A stretch of DNA of 64,000 nt, taken from NCBI GenBank assembly GCA_037903355.1, contig JBAJFE010000001.1, positions 992,001-1,056,000 of the forward strand, read 5' to 3'. The notes beneath the pieces are model-generated. The model had not been told where the DNA came from. It did no database searches and saw only the letters and a list, made by a program, of their open reading frames with translations. This document shows positions 14,372-63,980 of the stretch, piece by piece. The DNA is from Trichuris trichiura. Lineage: Eukaryota > Nematoda > Enoplea > Trichinellida > Trichuridae. The position numbers and the translations under genes are program-made. The first letter of the stretch is position 1; every line of letters begins with the position of its first letter.

Positions 14372-14398
14372 CGGTTGTGAATTCACAATTCACAACCG

Positions 14399-14438
14399 CT
14401 GAAGACGGGTCTCGGTCGACCCGAAAGCTCCGGAGTTA
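14399..14438 (+). ncRNA. Hammerhead-ribozyme-like motif (right palindrome arm)
   Basis: CTGAAGA, one extra C, helix II GGGTC/GACCC, GAAA, then AGC..GTT as helix III, with predicted cleavage after the A of GTTA. All invariant core positions of a hammerhead are present. In the transcript, the palindrome itself would compete with the ribozyme fold. Confidence 0.6.
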
Positions 14439-14660
14439 TTTAGCACATTAAACGGGAATACTTCCGTAATAAAACTTTTACATTATGAAAACATACGCTC
14501 CCGTACCAAGAAACCACATTTTCAAGCAACAAACGTTATGTGAAAAAATGGGTTAAAAAACCGTAAAAATTTTTTTTCAAAAAGAAAATTTAAAACCTGT
14601 TACGAAGAAGAGAGAAAAAAGATAGAAGCCTCGTACTAAAAGGCAGCAAATGAAAAAGCG

Positions 14661-21781: not shown

Positions 21782-22216
21782 TACTGTTCAACTGGGAGTC
21801 TGACTTCGTCTGAACGAGGTGTGCTCCCAATGTTAGACGATCTGCAGTGGTGGATTAGAAACTGAGGCCTATTGAAAGCGACTGGATTTTGTCACTGATG
21901 CCCGGATAGAAGGGCAGTGAAATGGTGATCTTTTTAGGTCAAGTCAAGGTCGGCAGCTGCTGCCGAGGTTGTTGGGATGTCGCAGTTTATGGGCAAAAGT
22001 GGAGTCTATGAAACGGCGGGAATATCCATCGTGACAGACAACTGTCTTGATGCACCGGAGCTCTCGGTCCAGGATCTACGATTCGAACAGGTGGTAGGTG
22101 TAGCGTACGTCTGCTCGACACGAAGCACAGTTGTGGAATGAATGTTTACTCCGCTCTTGCTGCAGTTCTAGGTGCTCGTCTATTTACCTAAGCTAGCCAG
22201 GTTTCACAGTTTAAAC
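21782..22216. other. No recognisable gene
   Basis: No reading frame or repeat boundary that I can name lies in this 435-base stretch. Confidence 0.35.
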
Positions 22217-25200: not shown

Positions 25201-25381
25201 AGAACGAGTTAAGAAAGGCTCTTCTTACGCCCGTTTTTCTGACAGCCTTTTTGCGCTAGAGACAATTCTGCCAGAATTCCTCTTATGCGATTCTCAACGC
25301 CCCCGCATGGGTTTCCCATCGCCCCCCTGTGCTCTCTCATCGCCCCCCAAGGGGCGATATCGCCCACTTTGAGAACCTAGG
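22217..25381 (-). mobile_element. hAT element (family with CATAGGTTCTCAA ends), full-length copy
   Basis: Starts CATAGGTTCTCAACC and ends GTTCTCAAA-type in inverse (TTTGAGAACCTAGG). Left-end text (CCATCGCCCCCC) and right-end text (GGGGCGATATCGCCC) match the copy at 54898-58664 over the whole length. Its right third also contains a stretch resembling a Merlin MITE (24865-25220, with CTTAGGCTAGGGCAG and TCCCCACTTGACCTTC). Target duplication is not clear. It carries a broken transposase. Confidence 0.8.
22745..24512 (-). pseudogene. SCAND3/ZBED5-like hAT transposase, frameshifted
   Basis: Read on the minus strand, in order: RRQYSSDYLKYGF and a BED finger (CLIC...HINRVH); SYFQSLRQKF; LRASYTISLLIAKFGKPHNI; TVQRRIYEMSNDVE; SLQLD; a frame at 23922-23650 with IVAVASDGAPSMVGCYRGFL and VHCVVHRQHLATRRLSER; then NLQLQGSDLNLIKTKGV; and finally PQWAIDPMSNVGEAE to PLSYLAD. 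The order and spacing equal the 27951-29729 copy. At least four frameshifts or stops break it. The second catalytic Asp (DGAPSM) is kept. Confidence 0.85.
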
Positions 25382-25510
25382 CCATAAAGCGACTTACGCT
25401 GTAGGTCTATAACAAACCTATTTGACTGAACGAAATCCGTGTCCGTTAAGCCAGCGTACTGGAGCCATTTTACCACTACAACATTAGCATGGAACTTCTG
25501 TGGCAGCAAA

Positions 25511-27249: not shown

Positions 27250-27951
27250 CAGTGTTTCCCAACCTTTTTTGAGCCAGGGCCCCCTTTCGCGACCTTCAAC
27301 TTGCCGGGGCCCCCCGTCATTCTCCCCAACGTAATTCTCCTGCTTCTGTTATCCTCAGGTGCGCCTACTGTGGTTACGTTGTTGTCAATTTGTACAAGTA
27401 GTTCAGCACTTGAAAGAGCCGGCAGAATGTAGATTTGATTTCGCTGCCTACCGTATTTGCCAAAGAAAAAACAGTTAAGCCGGGCCATCTTTAAAAACCT
27501 TATTAACCTGCGGATCTTGTCAGCTGCAAGTAGGACCCCATGGTTTGCGCTGTGAAAGTTGAGTGTGCAGCTGGAAAACCTGGCGATGCGAAGTCCACGC
27601 TGAGTTTCTTTTCTACACTAGAGCAAAATGGCTAGTAAGGAAGCCAGCCAGCTGCCATATACGGCGAATGCTCCTAGCGATATTCGAAGCCGTTAACGCC
27701 ATAAATTCTTTATTTGGCACTGAAGGCGTTCTTTTCGTATTACTGGACTTAAGCCGGCTAACTGCAGATCAGAGAGCATTCAGAGTACAAGCGTGGCATT
27801 GGGTTTCCTCTTCCTTAATTTTTCGGGCTGTTAGCAATGGTAGCGCAAATTGTAAGTGAGGCTCCGATGTTGTTCTCAGTGCTGCGCAACAATGAATCTA
27901 AATTCAATATTTCCTCGGAGCAAGACGACAGCCGCTTGATCTTACCTCACT
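27250..27951 (-). mobile_element. hAT terminus and 3' non-coding part of the near-intact copy
   Basis: CAGTGTTTCCCAACC at 27250 is a clear hAT end, followed by GGGCCCCCTTTCG. The stretch to 27951 is the 3' flank of the transposase gene. The opposite end was not identified with certainty. The best candidate is 32308, where CCACGTTGGGAATCACTG gives matching ends, but the flanking octamers (TTGTAACT and GTCTAACG) agree at only five positions. Confidence 0.6.
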
Positions 27952-29729
27952 TAGTGCGACGGTTGGGTCTGGTGCAATGCTAATAATTTATCCACGTCCG
28001 GGTCGATAGTCGTCAGAAGTAATCTCAAGTCGCCTCGCCTGACTATCTGTAAGCGGTTTCTTTTTTTTCCGAGAAGGTCCGTTACCGCACTAAATCCGCG
28101 TTCAACCAAATAGGACGACGGGAAAGGGATGAGGAACTTCTTAGCGACGTTCCATAGCCTGGGATACAGCTGTCTGATTTCCTGCTGCAGCCAGAAACTG
28201 GTATAGCCGCCCTTCATCTTGGGCTTCAGCTCCTCGTTGGCTTGCATCTCAATGAGCTCTTCCTGGTAAGCCACTTCAACCTCGGCGAGGCATGTAAACG
28301 GGTCCAAAACCCAGTCCGGTATCGTCATGGACAAAATATCTCTGTACCTTTCGCACATGTCCTCATGGAGCATGCTGAGATGGTCACAGAAGGAGCGGAT
28401 GACATCGTCAGGGAGGCCGCCATTCTTCTTGAGGTCGTCAAGGTTAGGGAACTGGCGGTACTCTCCGCGCCCCAGGTTTTGGCGGAAAATGGAAAGCTTG
28501 TCGATGAAAGCCTTTACAACCGTCTTCGTCTTGATAAGATTCAGTTGGTCTCCTTGCAACTGCAAATTCGTCTCGTTAAACTTTAAGTAGAGGTCCGCCA
28601 AGTAAGCTATTTCAGCTCTCGATTTCTCCACGTTGTCGCGTAATTCCGTATCTTCAGTTTTGAGAAACTGTACGACGGTGTCAAAAAGGGCATAGAAGCG
28701 GCTCAAGCAGGCGCCCCTTGAAAGCCAGCGTACTTCTGTGTGAAGCAGGAGCCGGTTAAAATCTTCGTCATTTTCTTCGCACAGTTGGCTGAACAATCTC
28801 TCTCTCAAGGCACTGCTTTTAATTTTATTAACCGCAGTGATCACGTACTGCAGCGAACGGTGCAGTCTGTCACTGAGCCGCTTCGCCACCAGATGTTGCC
28901 AGTGAATTACGCAGTGCACAGCCAGCAAATCCGGTACCTTTTCTTTTAGATACGAAAGGAACCCGCGATGGCGTCCAAGCATTGACGGGGCTCCATCCGT
29001 CGCGACAGCGATTGCGTTCGTTAGTGGTATCTCCTTCTCTTTAAAAAAGTTTTCTACAGTACGAAATATTGATTCTCCTCTAGTGTCAGTCAGCAGTTCT
29101 CTTGCGAAGAGTAACTCCTGAACTAACTTGCCTTCCTTGATGAATCTAACATAGGCCAGCAGCAGCGCTTCGTTATGTGGCAACGTCGACTCATCCACCT
29201 GTAAAGAAAATTCCTCTGTTCTCAAGAGGTTGCAGAGCGTATTCTCCACATCAGCGCTCATTTCATCAATACGTCGCTGCACCGTATTGTTGCTTAAGGG
29301 AATCTTTTTAATTATTTCAGTTGCAGGAATGCGCAACACAGTACGCAGCACTTCCGAAACAGCCGGCAGTATCAGTTCTTCTCCGATGGCATGCGGCTTT
29401 CCAGATTTTGCGATTAAGAGGGAGATGTTATAGGACGCGCGCAATCCGTCGGTGTTTCATCTTGATGCGGATGAAAAAATCCCTGGCAATTTAGGTCGCT
29501 TTTGGAAGTTATCTTGAAGAGATTGAAAGTAAGAAAGGTTTTTATTGGCCTTGTCACCGTGCATCGTTTTCAGGTGTTTTACTAATTTTGAGGGCTTCAT
29601 CAGTTCATTCGCAAAAGCCTTTTCCCAGATCAAGCAAAATGGTTGCTGCGAATTCGAGGGTGACGGTATAAAACCGTATCTTAGATACTCGACGTTGTAT
29701 TGCCTACATTTCTTTTTTGCTTCTGCCAT
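27951..29729 (-). pseudogene. SCAND3/ZBED5-like hAT transposase, one in-frame stop
   Basis: About 590 codons. Residues 1-90 (29729-29460) hold MAEAKKKCRQYNVEYLRYGF and a BED finger in which the second Cys is Trp (FCLIWEKAF...HLKTMH). A single TGA at 29457-29459 interrupts. The frame then runs 497 codons without a break. Landmarks are SLQVDESTLPHNEALLLAY (first Asp), AIAVATDGAPSMLGRHRGF (second Asp), VHCVIHWQHLVAKRL, HTEVRWLSRGACLSRFYALF, NLQLQGDQLNLIKTK, FPSSYLVERGFSAVTDLL (Glu) and the terminal QTQPSH. It is the best preserved of at least eight copies here and the natural reference for them. As it stands it would give a truncated finger domain or, from an internal ATG at 29444, a finger-less core. 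Confidence 0.88.
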
Positions 29730-34488: not shown

Positions 34489-35279
34489 AATGATACTCTT
34501 CAAATGAGCATTTAGTTACAGCAAGTTCAGTCTACGTTAGTAAAGCATTGACGTCAAAGGATGTTTCGATGGTACCTGCCGCTGGATGCGCATATTCCAA
34601 CATTCTGACTCTCAGCTATTCAACATCTGTACATAGCTTTGTCAAACCTTTACCTTTTTCTTATTGCTGCGTTCAACCCTTTGTTCTTAAACAGTTTCTG
34701 TACTGTATGCTGTATCTGATACTCTAGACTTGGGATGCACGCTGATTTGCTCGAGGAGCCTGAACTTGCGGCCATTTAAGGACAGTGAGAAAATTGAACT
34801 TATTACCATTATGATTCGAATAAATAAACGTAGTACACAAATTCTTTCTGTTGCCCCACAAGACGCACAAATTACTGACTTCGGTCGTTTCACCGCCGCT
34901 GTTATACATTTCAAGTAGACAACAGCTACCTGTTAAGGACAACACAACGGCAGCGAAGCGTCTTATGCGCAATAATCATAGCCAGTTCTCGCATAGCGCG
35001 AGTTTGATTGCTGGGAAATCCTGAAAAATCTTGCATTATAGGAGGCAAGTAAAGTATAAAAAAATTACCATTTAATTCAAAGCGTCAGATAGATTCTTTG
35101 CTCGTAAACAACAGCAAAGAAAACTTAAATAAGGCGAGTTCACAAAGGTGTTATGCTGTATCTAAGCAGTTTATTCAATCGTCAGGCACTAGAAGGTATG
35201 AACCTTTTTACACAGCACCTAAATAGTATATTCATTCGTTTTAAGGCTATCATACGTTAACTCCACCTCCACCACCTCA
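34489..35279. other. No recognisable gene
   Basis: AT-rich sequence with overlapping short frames on both strands at 34687-34972. The overlaps carry no motif. AATAAATAAA near 34820 could serve as a polyadenylation signal for the exon candidate upstream. Confidence 0.35.
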
Positions 35280-35307
35280 CTGACGACGGAACTAGAGCGT
35301 TCCGAAA
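35280..35307 (+). ncRNA. Hammerhead-ribozyme-like core
   Basis: CTGACGA, extra C, GGAAC/GTTCC helix II with loop TAGAGC, then GAAAGC. The core is intact, but helix III and the cleavage site are less clear (GCTTTGAACATTA). Confidence 0.5.
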
Positions 35308-35460
35308 GCTTTGAACATTAAAAAGTTGAGTGCGTTGATATCTGTACATTTTCTTAATAACGGCTCATCCATCCGTTGGTAGAGCAGTTGTTTTAGTTTA
35401 ATTACAGATAACAGCACAACGAAAAACGGGAAAAGCCGTAGAAGACCTTACAACCATGAT
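35280..35460 (+). repeat. Penelope-tail repeat with hammerhead-like motif
   Basis: The block 35280-35460 is the reverse complement of 46000-46130: core, then AAAGTTGAGTG, TCATCCATCCGTTGGTAGAGCA, a TTTAATTACAGATAACA stretch, and GAAAAACGGGAAAAGCCGT. It is a detached Penelope-like end. Confidence 0.65.
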
Positions 35461-38143: not shown

Positions 38144-40286
38144 GGATCTAGTCAACGGTTGTACCTCCACTTGTTTTTGTCGGCAATATCAATCGTTAAT
38201 ACGTGACGGTACTGTGTAATGAAGTGTGATTAGCGTAACAAAGGGAGGGACAGTCTACTGTAATTCAGCACACTTTTTATTACCGAAACAATAGGTGTCC
38301 CTTGCGAACTTGCGCAGCTGTGAAGGTTAGTGACCCTGATAGTGATACTGAAGGTCAATGGTATAACCGAACATCAAACAATGAATTACTTTCACTTCCT
38401 TTCACTGCCTCATAACGCTGCGCTGGCTCTATGAGACCGTGAAAGGAATTGAAGCAGCTGCGCCTACGAACGCCGTAGGTCAACGGTATAGCCGAACATC
38501 AAACAATGGAACAGACGAATTACTGTAACTGAACATATGCTGAGTGTTTGGCACAGAGAGCACAATGGAGCCGTGAGAATTGTCACTGAAGCGGTTACTG
38601 ACCCTTGCGAAACAGTAAAATGGAGGAGATGAAACACCTGCGCACAGGTTGCAGCCACGGAGAGCACAATGGGGTAGCAGTGGCGCACGCAAGGGTTCGG
38701 TTAGTGATTCGTCGAAAACATCGAAGGTCAACGATCTGATCCGCATCGGGACTTAGGAAACGATCGACGGCTCATTCTGCATAATGTCTGCTGATATGCA
38801 CATGCGCTGGCTGTATGACACCGTGAGAGACGAAGCAGCCGCCGTACAGTTTCTGCGCAAAAAAGGCCTGCTGCACAGTGAAAGGCGATGCTCCTCGTGC
38901 GGACAGATGATGCGGCTGGGACGCGGTGGCTGGACCTGGCGTTGCTTTAAGCGATCCTGTCGCAAGGAAATATCCCTACGCAACGGCACTTGGTTTGACG
39001 GTAAGCGCACTAACATCAGTGACCGCCTTCAGTGCTGCTATGCATGGTATCTGTTGCAGGTCCCAGGCACGGAATGAAGTTGCACAAGGCTGTAGAGTTC
39101 ATGTACTGGTGGAGCCGAGAGCTCACCACAATGAAAGTTTGCGTCAAGGAGCTAAGTATGCACCCGCGTCCCGAGCGTTGTTCATGTAGGCAGTGTTTAT
39201 ATTGCAGAGGTGAACCGCATCACTGCAATGCGTTGGTGTAGGTATCTGCGGCAGGTTGCAGCAGATGCGCAGGCCCTAACACCGGTGCAACTTGGAGGCC
39301 CGAAGATGACGGTAGAGCTGGACGAGTCGCTCTTCTCCCGGAGCAAGTACAACAGAGGGAGGAGGTATCCACCAGCGTGGCTCTTCGGTGCCATGTGCCG
39401 GGGAACCACTGATGTCCACATCGAACCTGTTAAGGACCTCTCGTCCAGCTCGTTGCTCCCTGTTATACGGTCTCGCGTAAGGCGCGGGTCTGCAGTGATG
39501 ACTGACGAGTGGCGTGCCTACCGGCGTCTCGGCCGCGAGGGTTACCGCCATTCACGTGTGAACCATTCGGTCAACTTCGTGGACCCAGACACGGGCGCGC
39601 ACACGCAGGCCATAGAATCACTGTGGGCCCAGCTCAAATGGGGTAATAAGCGGCGTTGTGGAACGCACCGGAGTGCACTCCCCTTACACATCTCCGAGTT
39701 CACGTGGAGGAAGCCCATAGGTGCCTCCGATCCGTTCGACGCCATCCTCGAGGCCATCCTTACGTTGCACCCTCCCCGAGAGGACTCACCGCCAGCGCCC
39801 ATGTCCATCCCGCAGGAAGCGGTTCGTAATTACAGTTTACAACAGCCGCTGTCCGTATGCCCGCAACTGTGTTTAGGTTGAAGCACACCCGACTGAGCTA
39901 ACCGATCGTCCATGTCACCCTGCCCCGGAGAACGGTATAACATTTCTGTCACTGTTATTTTGCCTTTCGATGTCGCTGCCGTCAGGTTGAACCGTTCCCG
40001 AGTGTCTGCATCGCCTGCGATCGTCTGCTTTCCCGAGTGATTGGTACATACGCTTTCGTTAACGGTTACTTACACCGTGCGCGCTAATGATACGTCTGTA
40101 ATGTTACGCTTCGTGTGTCCATTAGTAAACGTTGGACCGCTGAACTGCAGACATCTGCAATTCTCGCGCGCAGATGTTCTGATCCGATTACGTAACCCTG
40201 GTTGGCATAAGCCGTCGTAATCCCCACTTGACCTTCTTTGATCTTGCCGACAAAAACACGTGGAGGTAGAACCGTTGACTAGACCC
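38144..40286 (+). mobile_element. Merlin DNA transposon, apparently complete, perfect 8-bp duplication
   Basis: The 2,143-bp element is flanked by GTCGAATC on both sides (38136-38143 and 40287-40294). Its ends form an inverted repeat: GGATCTAGTCAACGGTT at the left and the complement of GGGTCTAGTCAACGGTT at the right, continuing for about 50 bases with few mismatches. Merlin transposons (IS1016/IS1595 relatives) make 8-9 bp duplications. It encodes one spliced transposase. It sits inside a Tigger relic, which is therefore older. Confidence 0.92.
38784..39881 (+). CDS. Merlin transposase, two small introns, catalytic triad intact
   Basis: Exons 38784-39000, 39060-39155 and 39208-39881 join to 987 bases, a 328-residue protein. 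The introns (59 and 52 bases) start GTAAGC and GTATGC and end TTGCAG and TTGCAG, and both are phase 1. Residues 36-59 form a zinc ribbon (C36, C39, C54, C59), followed by KEISLRNGTWFDG. The ISXO2-like DDE domain has D143 (VELDESLF), D204 (MTDEWRAY) and E241 (THTQ-like block AHTQAIESLW), with KYNRGRRYP and NHSVNFVDPDTGAHTQ between. No stop or shift is seen. The gene lies inside its own terminal repeats. The start could be an earlier ATG, but none in frame is better. It would catalyse cut-and-paste of this element and probably of the related MITEs. Confidence 0.9.
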
Positions 40287-42310: not shown

Positions 42311-42326
42311 CTAATTTTTCCGGAGC

Positions 42327-42354
42327 TTTCAGGTCAAACGCGACCCGTCTTCAG
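42327..42354 (-). ncRNA. Hammerhead-like core, 3' side damaged
   Basis: On the minus strand: CTGAAGA, GGGTC/GACCT, GAAAGCTCCGG, then an A-rich run in place of GTTA. It is therefore probably inactive. The MITE insertion lies immediately beside it. Confidence 0.45.
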
Positions 42355-42649
42355 CGATGTTAAATTGATATAGTGAGTAAGGTGCGTGAATGACGTACAA
42401 ACTAATTTAGCAGTTTAAAGGCGAGTGTTTGAAGGTCGGCTTTTGGAATTCTTCTCTGTCTGTCAGCTAGCTGTTTTTTCTGTTGTGTATATATGTTGCT
42501 ATTGTTCGTATAGTTAGTTCGTTTTTTGAAAAATTCTTCTTCATTCTTCTTTTATGTCTTGTCCATTTTTGGCTCCATGGCATTTGTTGAGAAAGCTGTA
42601 ATTCAGAATGCTGCTGCTGTAATTTTTGGTTGTTGAGAATGCTGTAATT

Positions 42650-44670: not shown

Positions 44671-45164
44671 CTTAGGACTGGCCGTTGTCAGGGGGTTATC
44701 CGCCCACCTACAGAAAGTGGGTAAATTAATTCATGATGCCCTAAACGTTTCTGCCGTAGGCGTTTTGCTCTGTGTGGATATGGTCTGTGTGATGTTCACT
44801 ATTTCTCCGTAAGTACGCCTATGTATCTTATATTTCGCCTGCTCTGTACCCATTCCGCACACCAGTACATCGTTTAACTTTTTAAAGCAAGGTGATGCCT
44901 AGGTGTTTAAAGAAAGAGCATCCTACTTTCATCCTCTCTTGTATCTAATGGCGGGACTCTAATGGCTGGCCCCATTGGATAAGCGCAGTCTCACTGATGT
45001 CCTTATTTCGTAGCTAGATCCTGTAGTACCAAGCTTCGAAGGATCACTACGTATGATAACCGTTCCGGAAGGAATTCAAGCGAGCAGGACGAAATACGCG
45101 GCTGGCGTATGAGCTATTTGGCTTTTCTCAGAGGGTATCCTATATAAGCCGGATTTTTCGAAAG
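44671..45164. other. No recognisable gene
   Basis: Nothing coding or repetitive was recognised in this stretch. Confidence 0.35.
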
Positions 45165-45314
45165 ACGGAGTGTCTTTTAACAGGCTTAGGTTGTTTCATA
45201 GCTGGCCTTCTGTCCACGGGTTAGGCTTGTTTGATGTATCTGTAAGTAAAAACTTCAGTGCCCTACCAACGAATGGATGAGCAAATTGTTAGAGAAAATA
45301 CAGAGCAATTTGAA

Positions 45315-45352
45315 TACCGTACGTTTCGGAACTGCTCTTGTTCCGTCGTCAG
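45315..45352 (-). ncRNA. Hammerhead-ribozyme-like motif downstream of Penelope endonuclease
   Basis: CTGACGA, extra C, GGAAC/GTTCC helix II with an AAGAGCA loop, GAAA, short AC..GT helix III, cleavage expected after GGTA. It lies about 115 bases past the stop codon of the endonuclease frame on the same strand. Confidence 0.6.
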
Positions 45353-45466
45353 CAGTGTCAGGGAGAAGATATTTATTCGGTACAGGGGTTAAATAGCACA
45401 TGGGAACAGTGGGTGTTTGATTACTTGGGTAGGGTGCAGCATTGGAATTTATTAATTAGCGCAGCT

Positions 45467-45960: not shown

Positions 45961-46101
45961 GATTTTTTACGGCTTTTTCCGTTCTTGTCTGTGTTGGTAT
46001 CTGTAACTTAAACGAAACAATTGCTCTGCCAGCAGGTGGATGAGCGATTATTAGGACAAAAATAATACAGGACCAATACACTCAACTTTAATTTTCAAAG
46101 C

Positions 46102-46129
46102 TTTCGGAACGCTCTAGTTCCGTCGTCAG
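46102..46129 (-). ncRNA. Hammerhead-ribozyme-like core
   Basis: CTGACGA, extra C, GGAAC/GTTCC with loop TAGAGC, GAAAGC. Same subtype as 35280. Confidence 0.5.
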
Positions 46130-46272
46130 TGAGATGGAGGAGAAGGCGTTATTCGCCGAAACGGTGTTATATAGGCGTACGTAGCAATAAGGAGTGGGGC
46201 GAGGTCAGCGTGGCAGTAAGCAACACTTGGTTTTACTGATAAGTGGGTCTCAAGCCGTGCTAACCTCTAGTC

Positions 46273-47386: not shown

Positions 47387-48095
47387 TAGGGAAGTATCAG
47401 AGCCGGGCGTTGTTGGTTATTGGGTGGGGACGGTGGTAAAGTTTTATTTAGTTGACGCCTTCTGACGGCGCCGCCGTGAATAAACTCTCCTGAAACACCT
47501 GAATATTCTCTTTCCTAAATAGATAATGCTAACCATTGAGAAAGAAAACAACTTTAGACTTGCTTTTCTAGATGTCTTAGTCATAAAACAAGGAAATAAA
47601 TTAAAAACAACAGTTTGTAGGAAACGCACCCACTCAGACCGGCACCAACATTTTTCTTCGCAACGCACCATTTCAGTTAAAAGAGGTATAGTTAAAGGGA
47701 TGGTTGATAGGGCCCTGACGGTATTTGACCCCAAATATTTAAATGCAAAATTAAAGCATATTTTAAACGCATTACGAGGTAATGGGTACTGCAGTAAAAT
47801 CATCATTCTCATTATTAAACGGCGTCAACTAAATAAAACTTTACCGTCGTCTCCACCCAATAACCAACAACGCCCGGTTCTGGTACTTCCCTACTACAGT
47901 GGCTTAAGTGAAAAGATCAGGAAGTTGGGACTCTCCTTAAATTTCAATGTCAGATTTAAAAGCTCCTCTAATCTTCGTCTGATTGTTAGAAATGATAAGA
48001 TCAAGGTTCCCTTTGACAGCAGAACTGGTGTCATTTACGAAATAAAGTGTTTGCAACGCCTTCTACATAGGAAAAACGGGCAACACTTTACTTCA
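47387..48095 (+). mobile_element. Penelope-like copy with inverted 5' part
   Basis: 47387-47463 is the reverse complement of 47820-47902, and 47464-47525 on the minus strand carries related Penelope coding text. The plus-strand coding part starts at 47526. Such 5' inversions are typical by-products of target-primed reverse transcription. The right side is cut by the Gypsy LTR at 48096. Confidence 0.65.
47526..48095 (+). pseudogene. Penelope-like RT C-terminus and start of GIY-YIG domain
   Basis: The frame reads MLTIEKENNFRLAFLDVLVI, THSDRHQHFSSQRTISVKRG, LNAKLKHILNALRGNGYCSK, PVLVLPYYSGLSEKIRKLGL, SSNLRLIVRNDKIKVPFDSR and GVIYEIKC. One extra T near 48052 shifts it, after which FYIGKTGNTLLH (the GIY-YIG motif) appears in the next frame. 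The N-terminal RT palm is missing. The FLDVLV, RK.THSDR.. and VPFDSR..GVIYEI blocks are characteristic of Penelope-like elements. Confidence 0.85.
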
Positions 48096-48239
48096 TGTAG
48101 TGTATTAGTGGGCCAAGTGACGTGTACGCACAGGTCACCTGAGGATCACGTTACAGTCAGTCTGAATTCATCTGGTTAGCTTCGGTCGGTTGGCTCGTTC
48201 TTTGTCAATAAACGTTGTCTTCGCGGTTTGGACACAACA
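48096..48239 (+). repeat. Gypsy element 1, 5' LTR and adjoining primer site
   Basis: TGTAGTGTATTAGTGGGCC through GACACAACA, about 144 bp. The start matches the 3' LTR at 53055. AATAAA at 48207 could be its polyadenylation signal. TGGCGACGATG at 48245, just past the end, is a typical Gypsy primer-binding site. It interrupts the Penelope endonuclease. Confidence 0.8.
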
Positions 48240-49486: not shown

Positions 49487-50705
49487 CAGTGTTTCTCACG
49501 GTGGGGCAGGTGCCCCACCAGGGGGGCCCAGAGCGCCAGGGGGCCCGCTGGGAGGGCCCATTTGAGCTATGTGGGGCACATGCCCCACCTAAGCCGTCGT
49601 GTTGCCGTGCATCCGAAGGTGAGGTCCGAGGATGAGGTATTGTGCGTACTGGTTAGGATAACGTTGCAGGCTATGCCTGATGCCGGCTACTCCCCAGTCC
49701 AGCACATGAACCAATCACCGCTCGCGAAAATGACCATTCAGAACACGCGACAGAAGGGCTGGCATGTTTGTCACTGTGACCTTCCCGGCGTAGGGTTGGG
49801 GAAGAAAAACTTCCTGCTGAGAAGCATTTAGCGCAGAGCACATGGTTCACATCAGAGAATGGTTGTCCGCGTTATCAGAATGCGCCATAGTTTCTGTGAT
49901 GTATTTGTACCTGCTTTACGATTCAACCAGCGATTAGCACGTGTTCGCAGCTGCAGCTTGGTAGCAATAACTCTGCCTTAGAATTTTGTCAACGATTACC
50001 ATCTCTCGCCCCGGCTCTGTGAAAAGTCGGCTCCCTTTTTCTTCCCTTTCTTTCCTCGCGTCTATTGTCCACGCAGCTACAATGCAAGCATCCGCGTTAG
50101 CGACGGGGAATCACGTGTGCTGCTCACATATTTTCTGGAAACACTTTGTCGGTACGGTTGCTTCTCTCCTATGCTCGTTGCAGTTTAGCAAGATATCACT
50201 GCAAGAAGAGCTGCTGGAGTTGCAGTTGAACGTGGAGTTGAAGGGCAGGTTGTCACAGGGTTGTCAGCAGTTCTGGCTGCAGAGAAATCCTAGAGTTGTA
50301 CCCTGGCGTATGGGTTGTGGTAAAAAATTTACTGGTTTGTCTTCCCTCATCGAGTCTAGTGGAGTGCGCATTTAGCATTGTTACGGACCTAGTGACAAAG
50401 AAACGCAGTCGGCTGCAAGTAGTCAGACGCAGCGATCTGCATCTGTGAGTTACTTTGATTGAGTCCAACATCCATAAGCTAGTTCGATTGCATCTGGGCG
50501 AGCCAAACAGCTCTTGTTGACTTCTCGAAAAACAATTTGCAGAAATAAATCTGTACAGCCGTAGTTGACCTTTTACCGTTGCAACCATTTCAGCCAATCA
50601 GTGCGTTGAAATTGGCTAATCAATGCGCTCGAAGTTGGCCAATCAGAATAGGGGGCCCGGACGCTCAGAAGCGTTCTCAGGGGGGCCCAAGCTTGAGAAA
50701 CACTG
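49487..50705 (+). mobile_element. hAT deletion derivative inside Gypsy 1, perfect 8-bp duplication
   Basis: Ends are CAGTGTTTCTCACGG and CTTGAGAAACACTG. GTCTGTAC flanks both sides (49479-49486 and 50706-50713). Removing the element and one octamer restores the Gypsy reading frame across the site. It is a relative of 5196-6697. It retains a scrambled transposase C-terminus at 50180-50520 (LQEELLELQLNVELKG, FWLQRN). Confidence 0.93.
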
Positions 50706-50713
50706 GTCTGTAC

Positions 50714-53043
50714 GATTTGCCGACATGGTTAAAGCAGAAGTATCAGGCGTTTTCGAAGAGTGTCTCGGAACATTCAGAGGTCCGCCAGTACCCCTTACAA
50801 TGCTACCGGACGCGGTACCTAAATTTTTGCGCCAGCGTCCCGTTGCATTCGCATTGCAAAAGAAGGTGGCAGAGGAAATTGATCAACTAGTGCAAAAGCG
50901 AATATGGGAGCCAGTTGCCGATTCGAAATGGGCAGCGCCAATTGTACCAGTCTTAAATAGAAATGGAACCGTTCGCTTATGCGCCGACTACCGCGCGACC
51001 GTAAATCCAGCCGTCGCTTCAGATGTGTTCCCGTTGTTGACTTTGGATGAAGCGTTAGCAACCCTGGCGGGAGGAAAGTGCTTCACGAAGCTCGATTTGA
51101 AGGACGCATACGCGCAAGTTCCGGTCGATGAAGCAGCGTCTGAGGTCCTCACGGTTAATACCCAGCGCGGGCTGTTCCAAGTGAAGCGATTCCCGTTTGG
51201 TCTTAAGGCAGCGCCTGGGATATTCCATCGTTCAATGATTTCTCTGATGAAAGGACTGGATGGCGTAATTGTTTTGTTAGATGATAAACTGATTATGAGT
51301 TCAACATTCTATGACGGGAAACGACCGGTGGTCGTAACGTGTGATGCATCCTCTGTTGGGGTTGGTGCAGTAATGTCCCATGTCAATGATGACGGAGTGG
51401 AGCAGCCTATCTACTTCGCTTCGCGAACGCTGCATCATTCTGAGCGAAACTATGCACAGGTTGACAGAGAGGCACTGGCAATTATTTTTGCCTTACAGAA
51501 GTTTTGTCGGTACCTGCTGGGACGTAAGTTCACTATATGTACGGATCACCGATCCCTGCTAGGCTTGTTAAATCATGGCAGAGCAATTTGAGATTGTGTC
51601 TCCACGAATGCTCAGATGGAGTTTGCTGCTGAGCAACTTCGGTTATGAGCTACGCTACCGGCCAGGTAAGCTGATGGGAGGCGCAGACGACCTGAGTCGT
51701 CTGCCAATGCCGTACAAGGGAACAGAAATTGAACCGCAACCCCCAGAGGTGTTCTTGCTGGAAGTCGAACCAGAAGGACCATGCACTGCAGTCGAAATTG
51801 CTCGAGCTACGAGTAATGATCGGACGTCGCGGGTACGTTCATGGATCATTCCAGGTTAGCCTAAAAACAGCGTACCAGACGAGTTAACGCTGTTTGCATT
51901 CAAATGGCAATCTCTATCGGTCCAAAGAAATTGTGTGTTGTTCGGCAGTCGCGTCATAATTCCGACGTCATTGAGAAGCGGAATTTTGAAGATGTTGCAT
52001 CTGAACCACCAGGGAATGGTGGCAACAAAGGCTATCGCCCATGCGTACGTATGGTGGCCAGGCATCAATGCGGATATCGAAAGAGTTGTTGCGAACTGTT
52101 CGGCATGCGAAGCAACACGACATGATCCGCGTAAAGCTGTACCATCCTTTTGGCCTGCTGTAGATAGCTCCCCGTGGAGCCGTTTGCACACAGATTTTGC
52201 CGGTCCATTCTTGGGCAAATATTCTTTATAGCAGCGGATGCCACCAGTAAATGGCCTGAGGCGAAAATAGTCTCGGGTGTCTCGTCGTCTGTGGCAATTC
52301 GCTCCATTAGAGAAATTTTCTCGTCGCATGGGCTTCCAAGAATGCTGGTTTCCGACAACGGACCCGCGTTTAGGTCAGCGGAGTTCAAAGCTTTCGTTCA
52401 GCGTGCTGGATTGTGCTATTTGTTCACGGCACCCTTTCATCCCAGCTCGAATGGGCAAGCCAAACGTGCTATGTAAACTATTAAAACGTTTTTACTGAAG
52501 CTAGCATCAAGAAGCAGGGACATCGAGAGAAATTTGGTCGATGCTCTCTTCGCAATGAGGACGACGCCCTCTTGCGTTACTGGACAGACTCCAGCGCAGT
52601 TACTAATGAATCAAAAGCTCGTCACGGCGTTTGAGCGCGCCCTCCCAAGCTTTGGTCAATCGGAAACACCGATCCGTGGCACCCGCAGCGGTAAGCTGCG
52701 TTTCTTTAGTATCGGTGACGCCGTAATGGCTAAAAATTTCGCAACCACAAGACCAAGGTGGGTCCAAGGCACGGTAGTGGGCACGCGAGAACGATATGTA
52801 TATAAAGTGCAGTTGGCAACCAACGGCATTGTTTCCAGGCACATTGATCAATTGCATAAAGCGCCGGAAAAACAGATATCGTCGGATGATTTTTCTGCGG
52901 TTCCCTTTGACGTGGGCAGACCAGCGGCGCGCAGCTCATTGAGCGTGCAGCCCCACGAGCCATCCCTGATTTTGCCGAGAAGAAATTCTCGTGACAGAAG
53001 ACGTCCACGCCACCTACAAGATTACGTACTTCTGCCAGCGTAG
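50714..53043 (+). pseudogene. Gypsy element 1, reverse transcriptase, RNase H and integrase
   Basis: RT: PVAFALQKKVAEEIDQLVQK, PIVPVLNRNGTVRLCADYRA, FTKLDLKDAYAQVPV, FPFGLKAAPGIFHR and VLLDDKL (the catalytic YxDD box reads LLDD). At about 51300 it jumps straight into RNase H (VVVTCDASSVGVGAV), so the RT connection region is deleted. After a shift near 51590: RYRPGKLMGGADDLSRL. Integrase: YVWWPGINADIERVVANCSAC (zinc site), HTDFAGPF, LVSDNGPAFRSAEF and HPSSNGQAKRAM, where the catalytic Glu (usually GQAER) is Lys. The last frame (52534-53043) ends the polyprotein. The element is defective in several ways. Confidence 0.88.
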
Positions 53044-53512: not shown

Positions 53513-54890
53513 CTAATCACTGTTAATGCGGCAGCGGCGTCGGCGAATTCGCGTGCTGCGTCCCACTGGTGATTGGTCAGGTGGTTCTGGCATCATTGGT
53601 ACGAGTACCTGTTCGGCCACGGCGGTCGTCTTTGTGGAGCCCTCCTGTTCTTCTTCGGGAGCTTCAGAGAGTGCTTCTAAATCAGGTAGTGTCATGCCGG
53701 CATCTGTCTCTGCCAAGGGCATGTTTTGGCCTTCTCTGTCTGGCGCCAGTGTGGGCTCCAGATCTCTTGCGTCTGCGCTGCACGGGACGCCCTCGCCTAC
53801 CGTGGAGCTCTCTTTAGAGACACAGTCTTGAAGCAAACAATGCCGAGGCCAGAGCCTCCTTGTCGAACGGCGCCGGACTGCTTGGGCTTGTGTTGCTCTG
53901 CGCTCAGAGGCGGGCTGATGTAGGGGTCGCCGTTCTATAGTGGTGCCAATCATAATGCCCGCTGGCTCCCTGCTCCAATCTGCAATTGGACCACTGACAT
54001 CGCCGTCGTCATCGGCGTTAGGCGTCGCACTCGCAGGAGGGATCGACACGAATCCACGGCGACGGATGTCGCGAACGTGGCGAGGCACCCCATTGACTTC
54101 CGCTGCCTGATCCGAGACAAGCCTGGTGACTAAGCCCTCGTCATAACGGGCGTCGCATCTCCCGCCGCGCGACTTTACCCACACGGTGTCCCCGACCGTA
54201 TAAGGACAGTGCGAATCCTGGGCATCGCTGCTAACCGATGCTTCGTTTCGGTCCTTCATCGTGTATCGGTAGACTGCATTGGCGGGGGCGGTGGCCGAAG
54301 AGCGATCATCCAGTGGCATGAGATTGTACCGATAGACTGCCTCCTGCGCTGAGCATCCTGCTCTTGCTGCGATCACCTTGACCGTCCTGTGGCACCGCTC
54401 TATTATGCCGTTCCCATTTGGGGCATAAGCGCATCGGAAACGGAGGCGTGTCCCCCATAGTTCAGCCAGCTGAGCGACCTCGCGACTCCGGAATGCGGTG
54501 TCATTGTCCGCTAGTAATTCGTCAGGCGCGCCGCGCTCACAAAAAATTGATTCCAACTGTTGCGCGACCTCAGCGCTGGAGCGTTGGTACAGACGGCGCC
54601 AAATTGCAAACCGTGAGGGCCCACAGTCAATCAGAGTTAGGTATAGCTCACTCCCGCAGTGAGCGACATCAATTCCAACTCTTTGCCACAGCCTGGGAAC
54701 CTCTAGCACTCCATGCCTCCATTTGGCAAGAGCCGGGTCTATAGAGCGGCAAATGTCGCACTTGCCCACCACGCTGCTGACATCACGTTTGGATATCCTT
54801 GGGTCACGACGGCGGGCAAAGTACAGCGTGCGCCGTACGCCCGGATGGCCTGAAACGCGATGCACTTCTGCAATCAGGCGTTTAGACCAT
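53513..54890 (-). CDS. Gypsy element 2, integrase, long open frame
   Basis: The minus-strand frame has at least 450 codons without a break. It starts in the zinc-binding part (HRVSGHPGVRRTLYF and VGKCDICRS, HHCC type). The core has the first Asp in GIDVAHCGSELYLTLID, the second in ELLADNDTAFRSREV, and the Glu in NGNGIIERCHRTVKV. A chromodomain-free basic tail follows (YTVGDTVWVKSRGGRC, RHVRDIRRRGF) with a long acidic, low-complexity C-terminus. The upstream RT part is missing, because an hAT element begins at 54898 and no Gypsy sequence was recognised beyond it. It is thus a partial polyprotein, although the integrase triad is intact. Confidence 0.85.
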
Positions 54891-56967
54891 AGGTTCTCAA
54901 ACTTTTTGCTCCATCGCTCCCCTGTGAACGTTTCTGACCGCTACTGCCCCCAATTCTGATTGGTCAATTTTGAGCGCGCTGATTGGCTGGAAGGTTGGGC
55001 GTGGCATAGTCGGGAGGTTAGTAGGTTCTCAAACATTTCCCTCCGTCGCTCCTGATGGGAAAATTTTTGCAAAACCGCTACTCGTGAGAACATTTTGCAC
55101 AAAAGACTTCAACTCCTCGTTACCTGAAAGGCGTACTATACCACTCCTGCTTTTCCATCGACCACTTTACGATGTGCAAATTTCTGCTTGCCTTTCACAT
55201 CTCTTGTCACATTTTTCAGGACATGGAGTCACATATGCAAGAAGTTTTCATTACCCTTTCTTGAAAAAAACAATCAGTGTGCGTCTGTTTTCTTATGCAC
55301 ACCAAAAGAATTGTAGTGACAAGGAACCAGATTGAAGTGAAAGCGCTTAAGCGAGAAAATAGAAAAGAAACTATAACGCAAGTTTGCGACTGCACATGAA
55401 CGGACACTACTCAATGTGATGGGTGTGCTTAATGCAGTACGAGAAAGTTGTCTATGTTTGGCTGCATCTTTATCATCATCGGTCTAAGGTCGCCTCGATT
55501 CACTTTATCTAGCTGACTTCTCTCTTGCTACTTAGAAGCTCCGTAACTGCGCTAAATCCGCAATCTGCTAAATAAGACAATGGAAACGCAATAAGAATGT
55601 TTTCTACAGCAGCCCATAACAGCGGAAACAGCTTCCTTATTTCGCTCTGTAGCCAAAACTGCTGATATTCACTTTTCAATTTCACTTTCAGCTCTTCATT
55701 GCTTTGCAGTTCAGTCAGTTTTCCCTGCAATTTTATCTCCGCTTCACCGACGTTGGACATAGGGTCTATTGCCCACTGTGGAATTTTCAAGTTAAGAATA
55801 TCACTGAACCGTTCCGTGAAGTCAACGTGCAGCATTTCCAAGTGTTGTCAGTACACTTCAAGTTCTTGTTCAGCGATGTCCTCTTCCTCCTTCAGTGCAG
55901 CTACAAGGGGAAACTGATAGAACTCACCGGCCCGTAAGTTTCGTTTGAAAATTGGCAATTTCGCGACGAAAGCAGATATAACTCCTTTAGTTTTAATCAA
56001 GTTTAAGTCACTGCCTTGGAGCTGCAAGTTCACTGCATTGAATTTGTAGTATATGTCTGCCAGATACGCGATGTCCTTCTTGTTTTTCTTTAAATGTTCT
56101 CGTAGAGAAGGATTCACACACCACAAAAGTTTTAGAACTGTGTCAAAGAGGCTGTAAAAGCGAGTTAAACAAGCACCCTTCGACAACCAGCGAACTTCAG
56201 TGTGAAATAACAGGCGAATGAAGTCTTCAACATTCAGTTCACCAAGCTGTCTGAATAATCCCTCATTCAGCGATTTACTTTTGATGGTATCAACCACTGT
56301 AAGAGTAATCAGTTTAATCGTTCGCTCAGGCGTCTTGTGGCTAAATGCTGTCGGTGAAGGACGCAATGAACCAGAAAAAGGCCAGGAACGAGCTGCTTCA
56401 AATGTGCAAGAAAGCCGCGGTAGCAGCCCACCATCGACGGTGCTCCATCGCTTGCCACAGCAACTATGTTCGCCATAGGCATGTTTTTATCCTTGAAACA
56501 TTTTTCTACAGCAAGGAAATAGGGTTTCTTCTTTGGTATCTGTCTGCAACTGTGTGGCAAACAGCAGTTCCTGTACCAGGGCTTCATCCATTACGAATGT
56601 GACATAACCTATTAATAATGCTTCATTGTTAGGTAAGATCGATTAATCAAGCTGCAAAGAAAAATGCGTTGCTCTCAAGAAGTCGCATAGAGTGCATTCT
56701 ACGTCGTTGCTCATTTCGTCAATCCTTCCTTGCACTGTGTCATTACTCACAGATACCCTTCCGATTATTTTAGTTGGTGACATGTGCAGTACAGTCTGGA
56801 TAACTTCGCTAATCACGGGAAGCAACAGTGTTTCTCCAATGTTATGTGGCTCTTTTTTCTTTTTTTCCCTCTTCGTAACGGGTATTGTAAATTTTTATTC
56901 TGAATTTTTCGCGGAATTTTGGATCCCGTTCTTCTATTTAAAATAAGTTTATTTTATTTTAAAACAC

Positions 56968-57005
56968 TAACGGAGCTTTCGGGCCTCTCCGTGGCCCGTC
57001 ATCAG
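56968..57005 (-). ncRNA. Hammerhead-ribozyme-like motif (left arm)
   Basis: Mirror copy of 57350-57387, with CTGATGA, GGGCC/GGCCC, GAAA and GTTA. One loop base differs. Confidence 0.6.
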
Positions 57006-57349
57006 CGTAATTGTACCGCCAGTCGGGTCGGTCTTTATGGTTGCAAGCCGCCCCATCCGACCAACTTTGGCAGAGACCTACCGCCGTCAGCGGGAAAGCA
57101 TGTTTAAAATCTGTTTGCTTGTTTAAAACAAAACGGGCAAACGTCGATTGAATGCTCGTTGGTTCTCATTTGTTCGCATGCCGCCGTCGTGGGAGGTCGG
57201 TTGGAAGCTCGCTGCGCCGTCTGACTGACTAGGCGGGACCGAAACCTGACGGCTCAAGGTACAGCTGACGGCGGTAGGTCTCTGCCAAAGTTGGTCGGAT
57301 GGGGCGGCTTGCAACCATAAAGACCGACCCGACTGGCGGTACAATTACG

Positions 57350-57387
57350 CTGATGACGGGCCACGGAGAGGCCCGAAAGCTCCGTTA
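57350..57387 (+). ncRNA. Hammerhead-ribozyme-like motif (right arm)
   Basis: This has the canonical CTGATGA, an extra C, GGGCC/GGCCC helix II with loop ACGGAGA, GAAA, then AGC..GTT helix III and A at the cleavage position. It is the best match to the hammerhead core in the window. Confidence 0.65.
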
Positions 57388-58673
57388 GTGTTTTAAAATA
57401 AAATAAACTTTTAGAAGAACGGGTTCCAAAATTCCGCGAAAAATTCAGAATAAAAATGTTATGTGGCTTTCCAAATTTTGCAATCAGTAATGAAATGGTA
57501 TAAGACGCACGCAGGCCATCTTTATCTTTTTGTGGTGCCGGCGGCAACATACGTGGCAATACGTTCCTTGTACAAAATTTCTGGCGAAGCGACTGAAAGT
57601 AGCTGATGTTCTTGTCACGCATGTCTGGATGTACTCTATTAATGTGGTCTTGTAGCCTCGATGGCTTGACAGATTCGTTCGAAAACACTACCACAAATCA
57701 AACACAGAGATAGCCATTTATTCGCAGGTGATTGTGTAAAACCGTATTTCAAATAGTCTGAGCAGTACTGCCTGCGTTTCTTTCATACTTCCGTCATTGA
57801 AAGAAGGCAACGAAATGATGGTTCTTGTCGTTGCTGTATTAGAGGGCTGAGAAGTTGCGGCAACGATTCCGTTTATTTGCAGTAAACGGCAAGAACAAGA
57901 AACAAATATGTATGTATATTCACGAATATGTCTTGTACAAAGGTAAAATGCCGTAAAATGTTGGCGAAACAAGGCACACGGAACAGAAACAAAAATCCTT
58001 CGATGACGAAACAGGAACACGGAAGAACCCAAGCGGGAAGACTCACAGAAAGACTCTGCGCCCAGAAAGTATTAGCTCAAACACAAGGATGAGCGAGTAA
58101 GGTGACCACCAGGGTGCGAAAGGAATTTAGCTGACAGGTTGCCGCACCGGATTTTTTAAAACTCGTCTCCGCCAGAATTGGAGGAGGCACTTTCAGGGGA
58201 AGTCAAGTGAGGATTAAGAGCGCAATGGAACAAAGGAACAGTGGACGTGATGGAATGAAACAGCTGTGCATGGATTGCTGGCATGCGAAACAATGGGCAT
58301 ACACGTTATGTGTAACCTCAGGCTAGGGCAGAATAGGATGAACTGTAAGCAATCCCCACTTGACCTTCTTTGAACTTACTGTCTCCATTTTTGGCGGAGT
58401 TCAGCCATGAAAAAGGCCATCGTTCAATTGCGCCCTCCATCCCCACTTGACCTCCTTTAAAGTCCCCGCCTCTACTTCTGGCGAGAACGAGTTAAGAAAG
58501 GCCCTTCTTACGCCGGTTTTTCTGACAGCCTTTTTGCGCTAGAGACAATTCTGCCAGAATTCTCCTTATGCGATTCTTAACGCCCCCGCATGGGTTTCCC
58601 ATCGCTCCCTTGTGCTCTCTCATCGCCCCCCAGGGGGCGATATCGCCCACTTTGAGAATCTAGGCTTTAGGAC

Positions 58674-61848: not shown

Positions 61849-63980
61849 GGAGACGTTCATTTCCCGTACGGTTATTTGCCGGACGGTCATTTGCCGAACG
61901 GTCATTTGCCTGAACGGTCGCTTGCCGGATAGGCCACTTGCCTGAATGGTCAGTTGCCAAATGATCATTAGCCTGAAGGTACGTCTGCCGGACGTTTATT
62001 TATCCGAATGGTCATTTGCCGGAAATTCATTTCCGGAATAGCTATTTGCCTCAAATGTTCGTTTAGGGTCAGAACGTGCACACATATATAGGTATGGCTT
62101 GCTGAGGGCAATTATTAGCTATTTCTCGGAAATGTAATTTCCTGGAAAATGCAGTTCCAGGAATCAGCAATTTGTCTCAAATGACCGTTTACGGTCAGAA
62201 CGTGCTTATATAAACGAATGGCTTTCTGAGGGTAATCACTTGCTGCTGTAGCTGATTTGCGGAAGTTCATTGCCGTATTTCGTTTATGAGTATGGAAGAA
62301 ATTTGTGAGACAGTTCGTTCTGCGAGAGGCGGCGATAAGCTAAGTGCGCGAGGATACTTGTTCGTGAAGGATAGATGCTCTGGAGATCGTTTCTACTAGT
62401 CATGCGACAATAGAAAAACATTGTACTGTCGTGGTCGGGCAGTTAGTAGGAGACTTTCACATGGACGGCACCTACTGGTTACATTTGCGGACCACAACCA
62501 CGTGCCAAATCCAAATGGGGCAGGCGTCCTGAAAGTTCTTGAAGAAGTTAAGACTGCGGCGCGAAGTGGCAGGGATTTGCCTTGCCAGATAATTCAGTCA
62601 TGCACAACCTCTTGTTCATTGGATGTGGCCGCGTCTTTACCATCGTCGGGTGCATTGCGGCAAATAGTGAAAAGAGTACGACGAGCTCAACGACCACCGG
62701 AACCAACAACGCTGACAGACGTTGACATTCCTGCGCTGCTGCGAAGCACATTAGATGGACGGCCATTCATGATTAAAGATACAAGCATTCCTGAAGGAAG
62801 ACTACTTATTTTTGCAACTGCAGACAATATTCAGAAGCTTGCAAATGCCTCTTATTGGGTAATGGACGGCACTTTCAAGACGTACCAACTATCTTTTACC
62901 AGCTGTATACGATCCATGCTCCTGTCGGTCAGGACAAGCGGACGACGTTTCCGCTCATTTACGCAATAATGACTGGAAAACGAGAGGCACTTTACAAGCG
63001 ATTGTTTGAAGATCTCTCTGATTCTGCAATAGAAAAGGGATTCCAACTGTCACCGTCAATCATAATGACAGACTTAGAGCTGGCCGTCATCAACCCTTGT
63101 AGAAGCACTTTTGAAGGCGTTGAAAACTCAGTCTGTTACTTCCATTTTTCAGTGTATTTGGCGAAAAGTACAGTCGTATGGATTATCTGCACAATACAAC
63201 ACGGACGCAAGCTTAAGGTCAAAAATTAAGTACTCGTTCGCTTTGCCTTTCCTTCGACCAGAGGAAATTCCGGAAGCTTATGACGAAATAAAAGACAGCA
63301 TATCAATCGAAATCGCTGAACTGTCAGAATGGTTCGATGCAACTTTCGTAAGGGGTAAGGTAAGGAGAAGGCTGCGCAATGGTACATGCGTACGGTCGTC
63401 ACCGATGTCTCCGCTGAATTTATAGTCCGTGCATCGCTGCGTCCTGAATAGAATGTCGCGTACACAAAACAATGTGGAGGCATGGCACAGCAGATAGGAA
63501 AACTTAGTCGGCCGAGCACATGTCGGTGTGCACCGAATGATAAATGAAATTCGAAATGAACAGCGGAACGTTAAAAACCGATGTGAACAAATCCGACGAG
63601 GAGAGAAGACGACTAACAAAAAGCAGAATCGTGTTCACGGGGAAGAAAAACTTGTGGAAATAATCAACGATCGAGTAAGTCACCCTGCAATTATGGACTA
63701 CCTGGGCGCAATAGCCTGCAATCTGCCTACATGAGTCCGCTTATAACTTATATTGTTCTACACCAGTTATAGGTGTTATTCTTGCGTCCACAGACTTGCA
63801 TTTTCGTATTCTCGTAATAAACAATCTCACCGTGATGATGCTAGCGCGCCATGCTTTAAAATTTCGTTAAACGGAAGTTATTGCAAGCTTAATCCTTCGG
63901 GCAAGTAATCGCTCAGGCAAATGACCGTTCGGCAACTGACCCGACGGGCACATGACCGTTCGGCAATCGAACCAAACCCC
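61849..63980 (+). mobile_element. MULE transposon, near complete, perfect 9-bp duplication
   Basis: ATCGAGAAG flanks both sides (61840-61848 and 63981-63989; the preceding C also matches). The left end is a cluster of about ten degenerate copies of GGTCATTTGCCGAAC (61855-62050). The right end (63895-63980) carries about four in inverse (AAATGACCGTTCGGCAA). Sub-repeat-rich ends with 9-10 bp duplications are typical of Mutator-like elements. It encodes a FLYWCH-MULE transposase. Confidence 0.9.
62286..63734 (+). pseudogene. MULE transposase with FLYWCH zinc finger, three to five lesions
   Basis: From ATG 62286: a FLYWCH finger (GYLFVKDRCSGDRFY, then C, then HNHVPNP) in which the conserved Trp is a TAG stop (62397-62399). 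Then IPALLRSTLDGRPFMIKD and NASYWVMDGTFKT (first Asp). A shift near 62880 leads into TIFYQLYTIHAPVGQDKRTT, PLIYAIMTGKREALY, PSIIMTDLELAVINP (second Asp) and CYFHFS (the C..H block). A second shift near 63150 leads to FALPFLRPEEIPEAYDEIKD and FDATFVRGKVRRRLRNG, with a third to RMINEIRNEQRNVKNR at the end. It is about 480 codons if read through. Few lesions and an intact site duplication imply a fairly young copy. Confidence 0.88.

Follow-up and report, generated by a model that had tools for sequence, protein, structure and literature searches.

Minimal hammerhead ribozymes are known from Penelope-like elements (PLEs) through Cervera and de la Pena (2014) and Lunse, Weinberg and Breaker (2017), as cited in passages of PMC6155905, PMC7761336, and PMC10085705. 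Dimeric hammerheads have been reported from the newt and the axolotl, and dimers have been suggested for the Penelope forms (parts of PMC7229834, PMC6155905, PMC7761336, and PMC10085705). The alignments of known hammerheads described in the relevant passages of PMC10085705 admit one or two additional bases next to CUGAnGA.

Passages of PMC11167929 describe what a purified Penelope-like protein does. Here, the protein nicks both strands of the target and extends both. Reverse transcription begins at two adjacent start sites inside the RNA, and the tail of the insertion is the stretch between them; according to the same passages, no difference in start site was seen between the strands. The hammerhead cleaves only when the protein is present, and it is uncleaved RNA that is used.

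Here, we consider a 64-kb stretch of a whipworm genome (C24:992001-1056000; “the window” is that whole stretch) within the 72.7 Mb, in 62 contigs, that were searched. A sequence-only reading of the window had pointed to dispersed hammerhead-like motifs, one of them at 57350. We consider it very probable that the motif represents a type I hammerhead fold in minimal form, that it resides in the pLTRs of Penelope-like elements, and that it has been scattered by a two-start insertion of element RNA.

Cores in the window and in the genome

The nine intact cores that had been claimed are all present. The sites are real; their coordinates needed repair, as copies on the minus strand had been given plus-strand coordinates. 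The true core starts are 4165 (+), 14371 (-; given as 14332), 14399 (+), 35280 (+), 42354 (-; given as 42327), 45352 (-; given as 45315), 46129 (-; given as 46102), 57005 (-; given as 56968), and 57350 (+). A tenth intact core, at 20266 (-), had been missed.

A hammerhead covariance model had been suggested as a check, and the refuting condition tied to it, no score from such a model, holds in part. The Rfam hammerhead models give zero matches in the 64-kb window, at the gathering score and at E <= 10 alike; we put this down to helix III having one pair only and to the additional base in the core. A model built from the cores themselves, which is no independent substitute for the Rfam test, recovers all ten intact window cores (E <= 2.8e-9). 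This model was trained on 19 loop-7 cores, four of these from the window. The five loop-6 window cores, which stand outside the training set, score with E from 1.3e-10 to 2.8e-9. Among the sites that had been listed as decayed, the model finds 12401 (E 8e-11), 2840 (1.3e-4), 5143 (3.7e-4), and 12296 (0.0075), but not 8344, whose E of 1.3 is not significant alone.

The matches fall into several families. The core at 4159-4203 (+; 51.3 bits) belongs with that at 45314-45358 (-; 59.8 bits), an autonomous-type family with helix I ACTG/CGGT and helix III ACGT, and shares with it a 213-bp match to 45156-45365. Three cores outside the training set represent a family with helix I TCA/TGA (35274-35317, +, 39.6 bits; 46092-46135, -, 41.7 bits) and one with helix II GGGTC (42317-42360, -, 37.5 bits). 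The core at 20228-20272 (-; 41.8 bits) has a poorly paired helix I (ACG / ATC). At 12395-12439 (+; 42.4 bits), GATA replaces GAAA, and a mirror partner lies at 12286-12330 (-; 16.8 bits). Decayed cores are found at 5137-5180 (+; 21.0 bits) and, inside a palindrome at 2748-2928, at 2834-2877 (+; 22.4 bits). The palindromic element at 14278-14492, 215 bp long and 98.6% matched to its own reverse complement, holds the cores at 14334-14377 (-) and 14393-14436 (+).

The window also opens with a large palindrome (1-2509; 94.5% match to its own reverse complement). Short tandem arrays at 61853-62021 and 63900-63966, approximately 2 kb apart, are built from related 15/31-bp units and run in opposite orientations.

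Across the genome, the pattern CTGANGANGGN{11,14}CCGAAAG has 3322 exact matches, versus 0 for the reversed pattern; without the final G, these numbers become 3888 versus 3. This rules out chance, or simple DNA palindromes, as the source of the motif. The sequence families number some tens (29 clusters among 71 instances). Certain copies stand in tandem units of 475-480 bp with one core each (C1:2085522, 2085997, and 2086472; C1:1271207 and 1271687).

The fold

The cores used to study the fold came from the window and 65 loci. These gave 100 instances, 71 of them unique, and 51 distinct short cores; one of the latter, without GAAA, was left out, and 50 were analysed. Selection asked for CTGANGA, GAA, and a helix II of four or more pairs, and made no use of helix I. 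The core features CTGANGA and GAAA are of course present, but both belonged to the search pattern. Helix II is likewise weaker evidence than helix I, because the cores were selected on helix II pairing. The claim that helix II arms change in sequence and stay complementary is correct (99.3% and 98.9% of cells are paired).

Written as RNA, the motif reads helix I - CUGANGA - extra Y - helix II - GAA - A(NN)U - H17 | helix I', with the predicted cut at the bar. Two oddities had been flagged by the sequence-only reading, an extra base before helix II and an unclear helix I. The extra base is real. Helix I, on the other hand, can now be defined: it joins the three bases 5' of CTGANGA to the three bases after GAAA-NN-T-H, and its three positions are paired in 46, 45, and 46 of the 50 distinct cores. 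When registers from -3 to +3 are compared, three well-paired positions are found at register 0 alone. The arms covary, as CCG/CGG, GCG/CGC, ACG/CGT, TCG/CGA, and TCA/TGA, and the third position is C-G in 29 cores, G-C in eight, T-A in seven, A-T in one, T-G in one, and unpaired in four.

Two alignments, together covering 48 of the 50 cores (L059:1448-1490 and L063:1409-1452, of odd length with an inserted base, were left out), were compared with shuffled versions. Over the whole structure, double-change cells number 26 versus 5.7 shuffled for the 29 loop-6 cores, and 28 versus 9.5 for the 19 loop-7 cores; helix I supplies 12 and 10 of these. Sliding the partners by one to three columns lowers pairing from 98% and 95% to at most 54%. 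A second measure counts against the fold: in the loop-6 alignment, pairs that show any double change are no more numerous than in the shuffles (4 versus 3.4), and 254 of 500 shuffles reach 4.

Of the 50 distinct cores, 49 have T at position 16.1; at position 17, 27 have C, 12 have A, 11 have T, and none has G. A hammerhead cut site requires both features, which make up the NUH rule. The motif thus fits a hammerhead because helix I covaries even though it was not selected for, because U16.1 is nearly constant, and because H17 avoids G. Together, these support the hammerhead interpretation of the earlier reader, here as a predicted minimal type I fold.

At 57350 itself, on the plus strand, the 5' strand of helix I, ACG (57347-57349), pairs with its 3' strand, CGT (57383-57385). 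Between them lie the core CTGATGA (C3-A9; 57350-57356), the extra base “9.1,” a C between A9 and helix II (57357), helix II as GGGCC / GGCCC with the loop ACGGAGA (57358-57374), and the core GAA (G12-A14; 57375-57377). The segment 57378-57382 then holds A15.1-GC-T16.1, a reduced and self-complementary helix III, and C17. Cleavage had been placed after GTA or GTTA. The first holds for the 45315 type; at 57350, the predicted site is not GTTA but CTC, with the cut falling at 57382/57383.

Free-energy folding is less favorable. All three helix I pairs appear in the folds of only 29 of the 50 cores, which counts against the hammerhead reading. Pairing of loop II with downstream sequence is possible in one family, judged by eye only.

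Departures from the consensus hammerhead

In the consensus, helix II follows A9 directly and helix III has two or more pairs. Neither is found in the 50 distinct cores. A pyrimidine stands between A9 and helix II in every one (C in 43, T in seven), and helix III is only A-NN-U. Minimal Penelope forms are described, in the passages cited above, as lacking helix III. In a wider list of sites, the extra base is A at a few (C1:1676385, for example). A search for CTGANGA followed directly by GG, which detects only helices II that start with GG, returned only 22 sites in the genome. Inspection by eye shows that the extra base is kept in most of these, as a G; a few are too degraded to judge, and C2:3225919 clearly lacks it.

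The extra base pairs with G12 in eight of nine printed free-energy folds. An alternative in which the extra C opens helix II by pairing with G12 was considered and rejected: it leaves no free G12 and spoils the register of A15.1, U16.1, and H17. The 9.1-G12 pairing may instead be a possible resting state of the modelled RNA, not the active one.

The reduced helix III has its own regularity. A-NN-U is self-complementary in 3511 of 3888 genomic matches, as AGCU in 3132 and ACGU in 379. The ACGU form is nearly restricted to one lineage among the listed sites, and the self-complementarity therefore reflects few evolutionary events. A self-complementary A-NN-U is what a dimeric hammerhead would need, and this suggests dimers. 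When nine cores were folded as dimers with ViennaRNA, some paired through the palindrome, and others formed full-length duplexes. Lunse (2017) is said to have obtained a dimer result.

The host elements

The sequence-only reading had linked the motif to Penelope-like elements. This membership is supported, since an intact core lies 3' of a reverse transcriptase on the coding strand in 24 of the 29 loci sampled (L007-L035). The window itself has, at 47523-48179 (+), a fragment of a Penelope-like reverse transcriptase ORF, recognised through its relatives; Pfam finds nothing in the fragment itself. The genome search with this fragment had 1527 candidates, of which 150 matches were scored. A protein search gave ten relatives, eight of which carry the name of a Trichuris species (T. 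suis or T. muris). The closest is a T. suis “GIY-YIG domain-containing” protein (86% identity over 32% of the query). These relatives point to a whipworm near T. suis, probably T. trichiura.

The names carried by the Trichuris relatives of the ORF are RT, HTH, and GIY-YIG. Two long ORFs match RVT_1 in Pfam; Pfam GIY-YIG was found in neither of these two. The GIY-YIG endonuclease of the host element is thus a putative one, taken from the name of a relative. The assignment of the host elements to the Penelope type is a reading of sequence and element anatomy, as no tool applies the label “Penelope.”

In five of the six copies checked, 71 bp separate the start of the core from the stop codon, measured from its first base; in the sixth, which has an earlier stop, the distance is 265 bp. 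That RT-linked family has a TATA-like TATATAAA approximately 43 nt upstream of CTGA, and one other family has a similar box. Matches of the TATA[AT]A type number 13 in 43 upstream regions, versus 3.3 expected; ten of the 13 lie at -38 to -44, and these come from two families only. The copy C7:4272092, a single case, begins 13 nt upstream of CTGA, near the transcription start that the TATA box predicts. At L066, the element has a direct terminal repeat. A second hairpin, ACGG..CCGT, follows the core in 23 of 45 distinct downstream sequences, versus 3 upstream (L041, L059, and L099 are examples); it lies 19-48 nt past the cut, with one case at 71, and the copy at 57350 has no match to it. This hairpin may mark the start of reverse transcription.

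Other mobile DNA is present in the window. An ISXO2/IS1595-like transposase domain lies at 39156-39881 (+; Pfam E 8.6e-20), and parts of LTR retrotransposons, with reverse transcriptase/RNase H and integrase, lie at 50620-51591 (+) and 53513-54940 (-). The reading frames 27951-29456 (-) and 55848-56486 (-) seem related by eye; the former has a hAT dimerisation match under the Pfam cut-off, and the latter lies directly to the left of the 57350 insertion.

Inverted insertions with one tail

The 57350 core is the plus-strand arm of an insertion of 603 bp (56852-57454), in which comparison of arms and ends shows two inverted, core-bearing arms around a unique middle. The mirror core is at 56967-57011 (-; 57.3 bits). 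A 14-bp target-site duplication, AATGTTATGTGGCT, flanks the insertion at 56838-56851 and 57455-57468. The two ends are not equal. Only the left one carries a tail, at 56852-56887, with an offset of 36, which becomes 29 once the overlap at the opposite end is subtracted. A related stretch without the insertion, 22209-25382, has the 14-bp target once, at 24173-24186.

Nine distinct pairs of divergent cores (minus, then plus) lie within 60 bp, with 4-58 bp between cores; convergent pairs number none within 60 bp and four at 300-1895 bp. These counts concern the best 116 of 132 covariance-model matches, with overlapping loci counted once. In an earlier set, 17 of 21 divergent elements had an exact shared target. 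In all, 39 inverted elements were scored, 19 from the window and loci and 20 fetched solely for their diverging cores; L034, with its right end at the edge of the locus, and L016, where the arms span the compared stretch and no target is seen, were excluded. A target duplication (score of at least 9) of 9-19 bp was found in 37 of the 39, the two without a resolvable one being 14278-14492 and L002.

All 37 have a tail at exactly one end, 19 at the left and 18 at the right; the opposite end finishes together with the inverted arms. Elements with equal ends, both tailed or both untailed, number zero among these 37. The net length of the tail is 13-49 nt, with a median of 33. As a control, the left flank of one element was paired with the right flank of a different one; in 74 trials, the cut-off of 9 was reached five times (scores of 12, 10, 10, 9, and 9). 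L063 and L094, each with a score of 9, are therefore not secure alone. Duplications that score at least 13, above every control, number 23 of the 37, and all 23 belong to one-tailed elements. Within one family, the tails are alike by eye (a GTCCCGTAC stretch), and are therefore taken as templated.

Proposed mechanism and its alternatives

Our proposal starts from what was computed: the fold and its membership in elements, and, in the elements examined, the target duplications, the inverted arms, and the single tail. The hammerhead would sit in the pLTR, the terminal part of a Penelope-like retrotransposon, and Penelope machinery, by inserting short element RNAs, would disperse the motif. Both broken strands of the target would prime reverse transcription on element RNA, with one start per end, drawn from two start sites approximately 33 nt apart. 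The two starts would leave inverted arms, each with a hammerhead, together with a target duplication of 9-19 bp and one tail. The hammerhead would cut after H17, most likely as dimers formed through A-NN-U and perhaps only with the element protein present, and its cutting would free unit RNAs from tandem transcripts. By analogy, the absence of a strand difference in the start site in the passages of PMC11167929 should be counted against one start per end.

Were cleaved RNA the usual template, the 5' junctions would be expected to cluster at the cut. Those of 20 longer copies (19 fetched, plus L066) are scattered from -210 to +141 relative to the cut, with one at +1 (L066) and one at -5 (L075); the L085 and L077 junctions are weak, being aligned over short or poorly matching stretches only. 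This scatter therefore gives no genomic sign that cleaved RNA is the template. Four copies (L072, L074, L078, and L080) begin upstream of the cut, at a distance of 78-210 nt, having read through an uncut core. By analogy, the scatter would agree with the in vitro use of uncleaved RNA and with the protein-dependent cleavage described in passages of PMC11167929.

One alternative is that the fold persists chiefly for a structural or protein-binding role in the element RNA, for recognition or dimerisation near the start of reverse transcription, and that cleavage is absent or unimportant. This overlaps with our proposal except on cleavage, and we regard it as possible, on the unlikely side. It would account for the missing pile-up of 5' ends at the cut and for the four copies that span an uncut core; it also agrees with the pairing of the extra base with G12 and, in the passages of PMC11167929, with hammerhead mutants that still insert in vitro. 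Against this, U16.1 and the NUH rule, which matter for the cut, are conserved together with the fold, and the hammerhead of the related element cleaves with protein, according to those passages. A different RNA altogether, such as a kink-turn or a C/D-box-like motif that merely resembles a hammerhead, has in its favor the likeness of CTGATGA to box C. Such RNAs fit no better than a hammerhead, as the helix I covariation falls exactly at the type I position, U16.1 is present, and H17 is not G; we consider the idea very improbable.

The palindromes themselves have been explained elsewhere as self-priming, where one cDNA is copied back on itself; passages of PMC3846280 propose this for rotifer Penelope elements. 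Long palindromes with short centres, including the nine close core pairs, are what such copying back would give. Copying back, however, predicts matching ends, and every one of the 37 resolved elements has an extra tail at one end, with tails that look alike within a family. This consistent asymmetry speaks against copy-back, which we judge decidedly unlikely, and favors two separate starts. Inverted arms with target duplications could also suggest DNA transposons (MITEs) that have the motif in their terminal repeats by accident. Here, the variable length of the duplications, the tailed and asymmetric ends, and the presence of the same core 3' of Penelope-like coding sequence make this hardly credible. 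Two-start insertion, as we propose it, admits a bolder version, which we offer as speculation and rate as rather doubtful: every Penelope-type insertion would comprise two separate reverse-transcription events at different RNA sites, one for each broken end, the minimal hammerhead would be conserved in part because the self-complementary A-NN-U pairs two element RNAs, a dimeric ribonucleoprotein would give each end one RNA, and the protein, by opening the 9.1-G12 pair, would switch cleavage on.

Comparison with known systems

Among the matches listed, there is no paper on Trichuris hammerheads or Penelope elements; the one word match, PMC5405514, is on telomerase. Nor do the passages and matches listed include a strict rule of one tail per insertion.

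As far as the cited passages go, the whipworm motif resembles the minimal Penelope hammerheads in its pLTR location, its near-absent helix III, its thousands of dispersed animal copies, and its suspected dimers. It differs in that an additional pyrimidine is conserved between A9 and helix II. The metazoan retrozymes, as described in parts of PMC7229834, are also small and non-autonomous; these repeats carry type I hammerheads, of which some have a weak helix III and act as dimers, and the tandem 475-480 bp units recall them. Close whipworm neighbors, in contrast, are mostly inverted, not tandem.

Poseidon of Anolis (PAc, in passages of PMC11167929) is similar in placing a hammerhead near two internal start sites for reverse transcription, in its tail of 30-40 bp, and in the use of both strands. 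The PAc hammerhead, however, overlaps the start of the ORF, while in the whipworm copy examined the core is near the stop codon of the ORF, whose first base is 71 bp away. A rule of one tail per insertion does not figure in those passages. The Penelope elements of Adineta vaga, as presented in parts of PMC3846280, have inverted pLTRs, a 31-bp tail optionally at one of these, a TATA box, and duplications of 8-10 bp; the word “hammerhead” is absent from the main text of that paper by word search. Their palindromes are put down to self-priming, whereas the whipworm asymmetry favors two starts.

Thus, the kind is already known, as minimal Penelope hammerheads. One genome here offers more than 3000 copies that match the pattern, with a recognisable cut site and insertion ends that would record the starts of reverse transcription. 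The variant core with its extra base and the self-complementary A-NN-U are worth following. Above all, this holds for the one-tail asymmetry, the most interesting part, as it makes both the mechanism of Penelope insertion and the purpose of the ribozyme testable.
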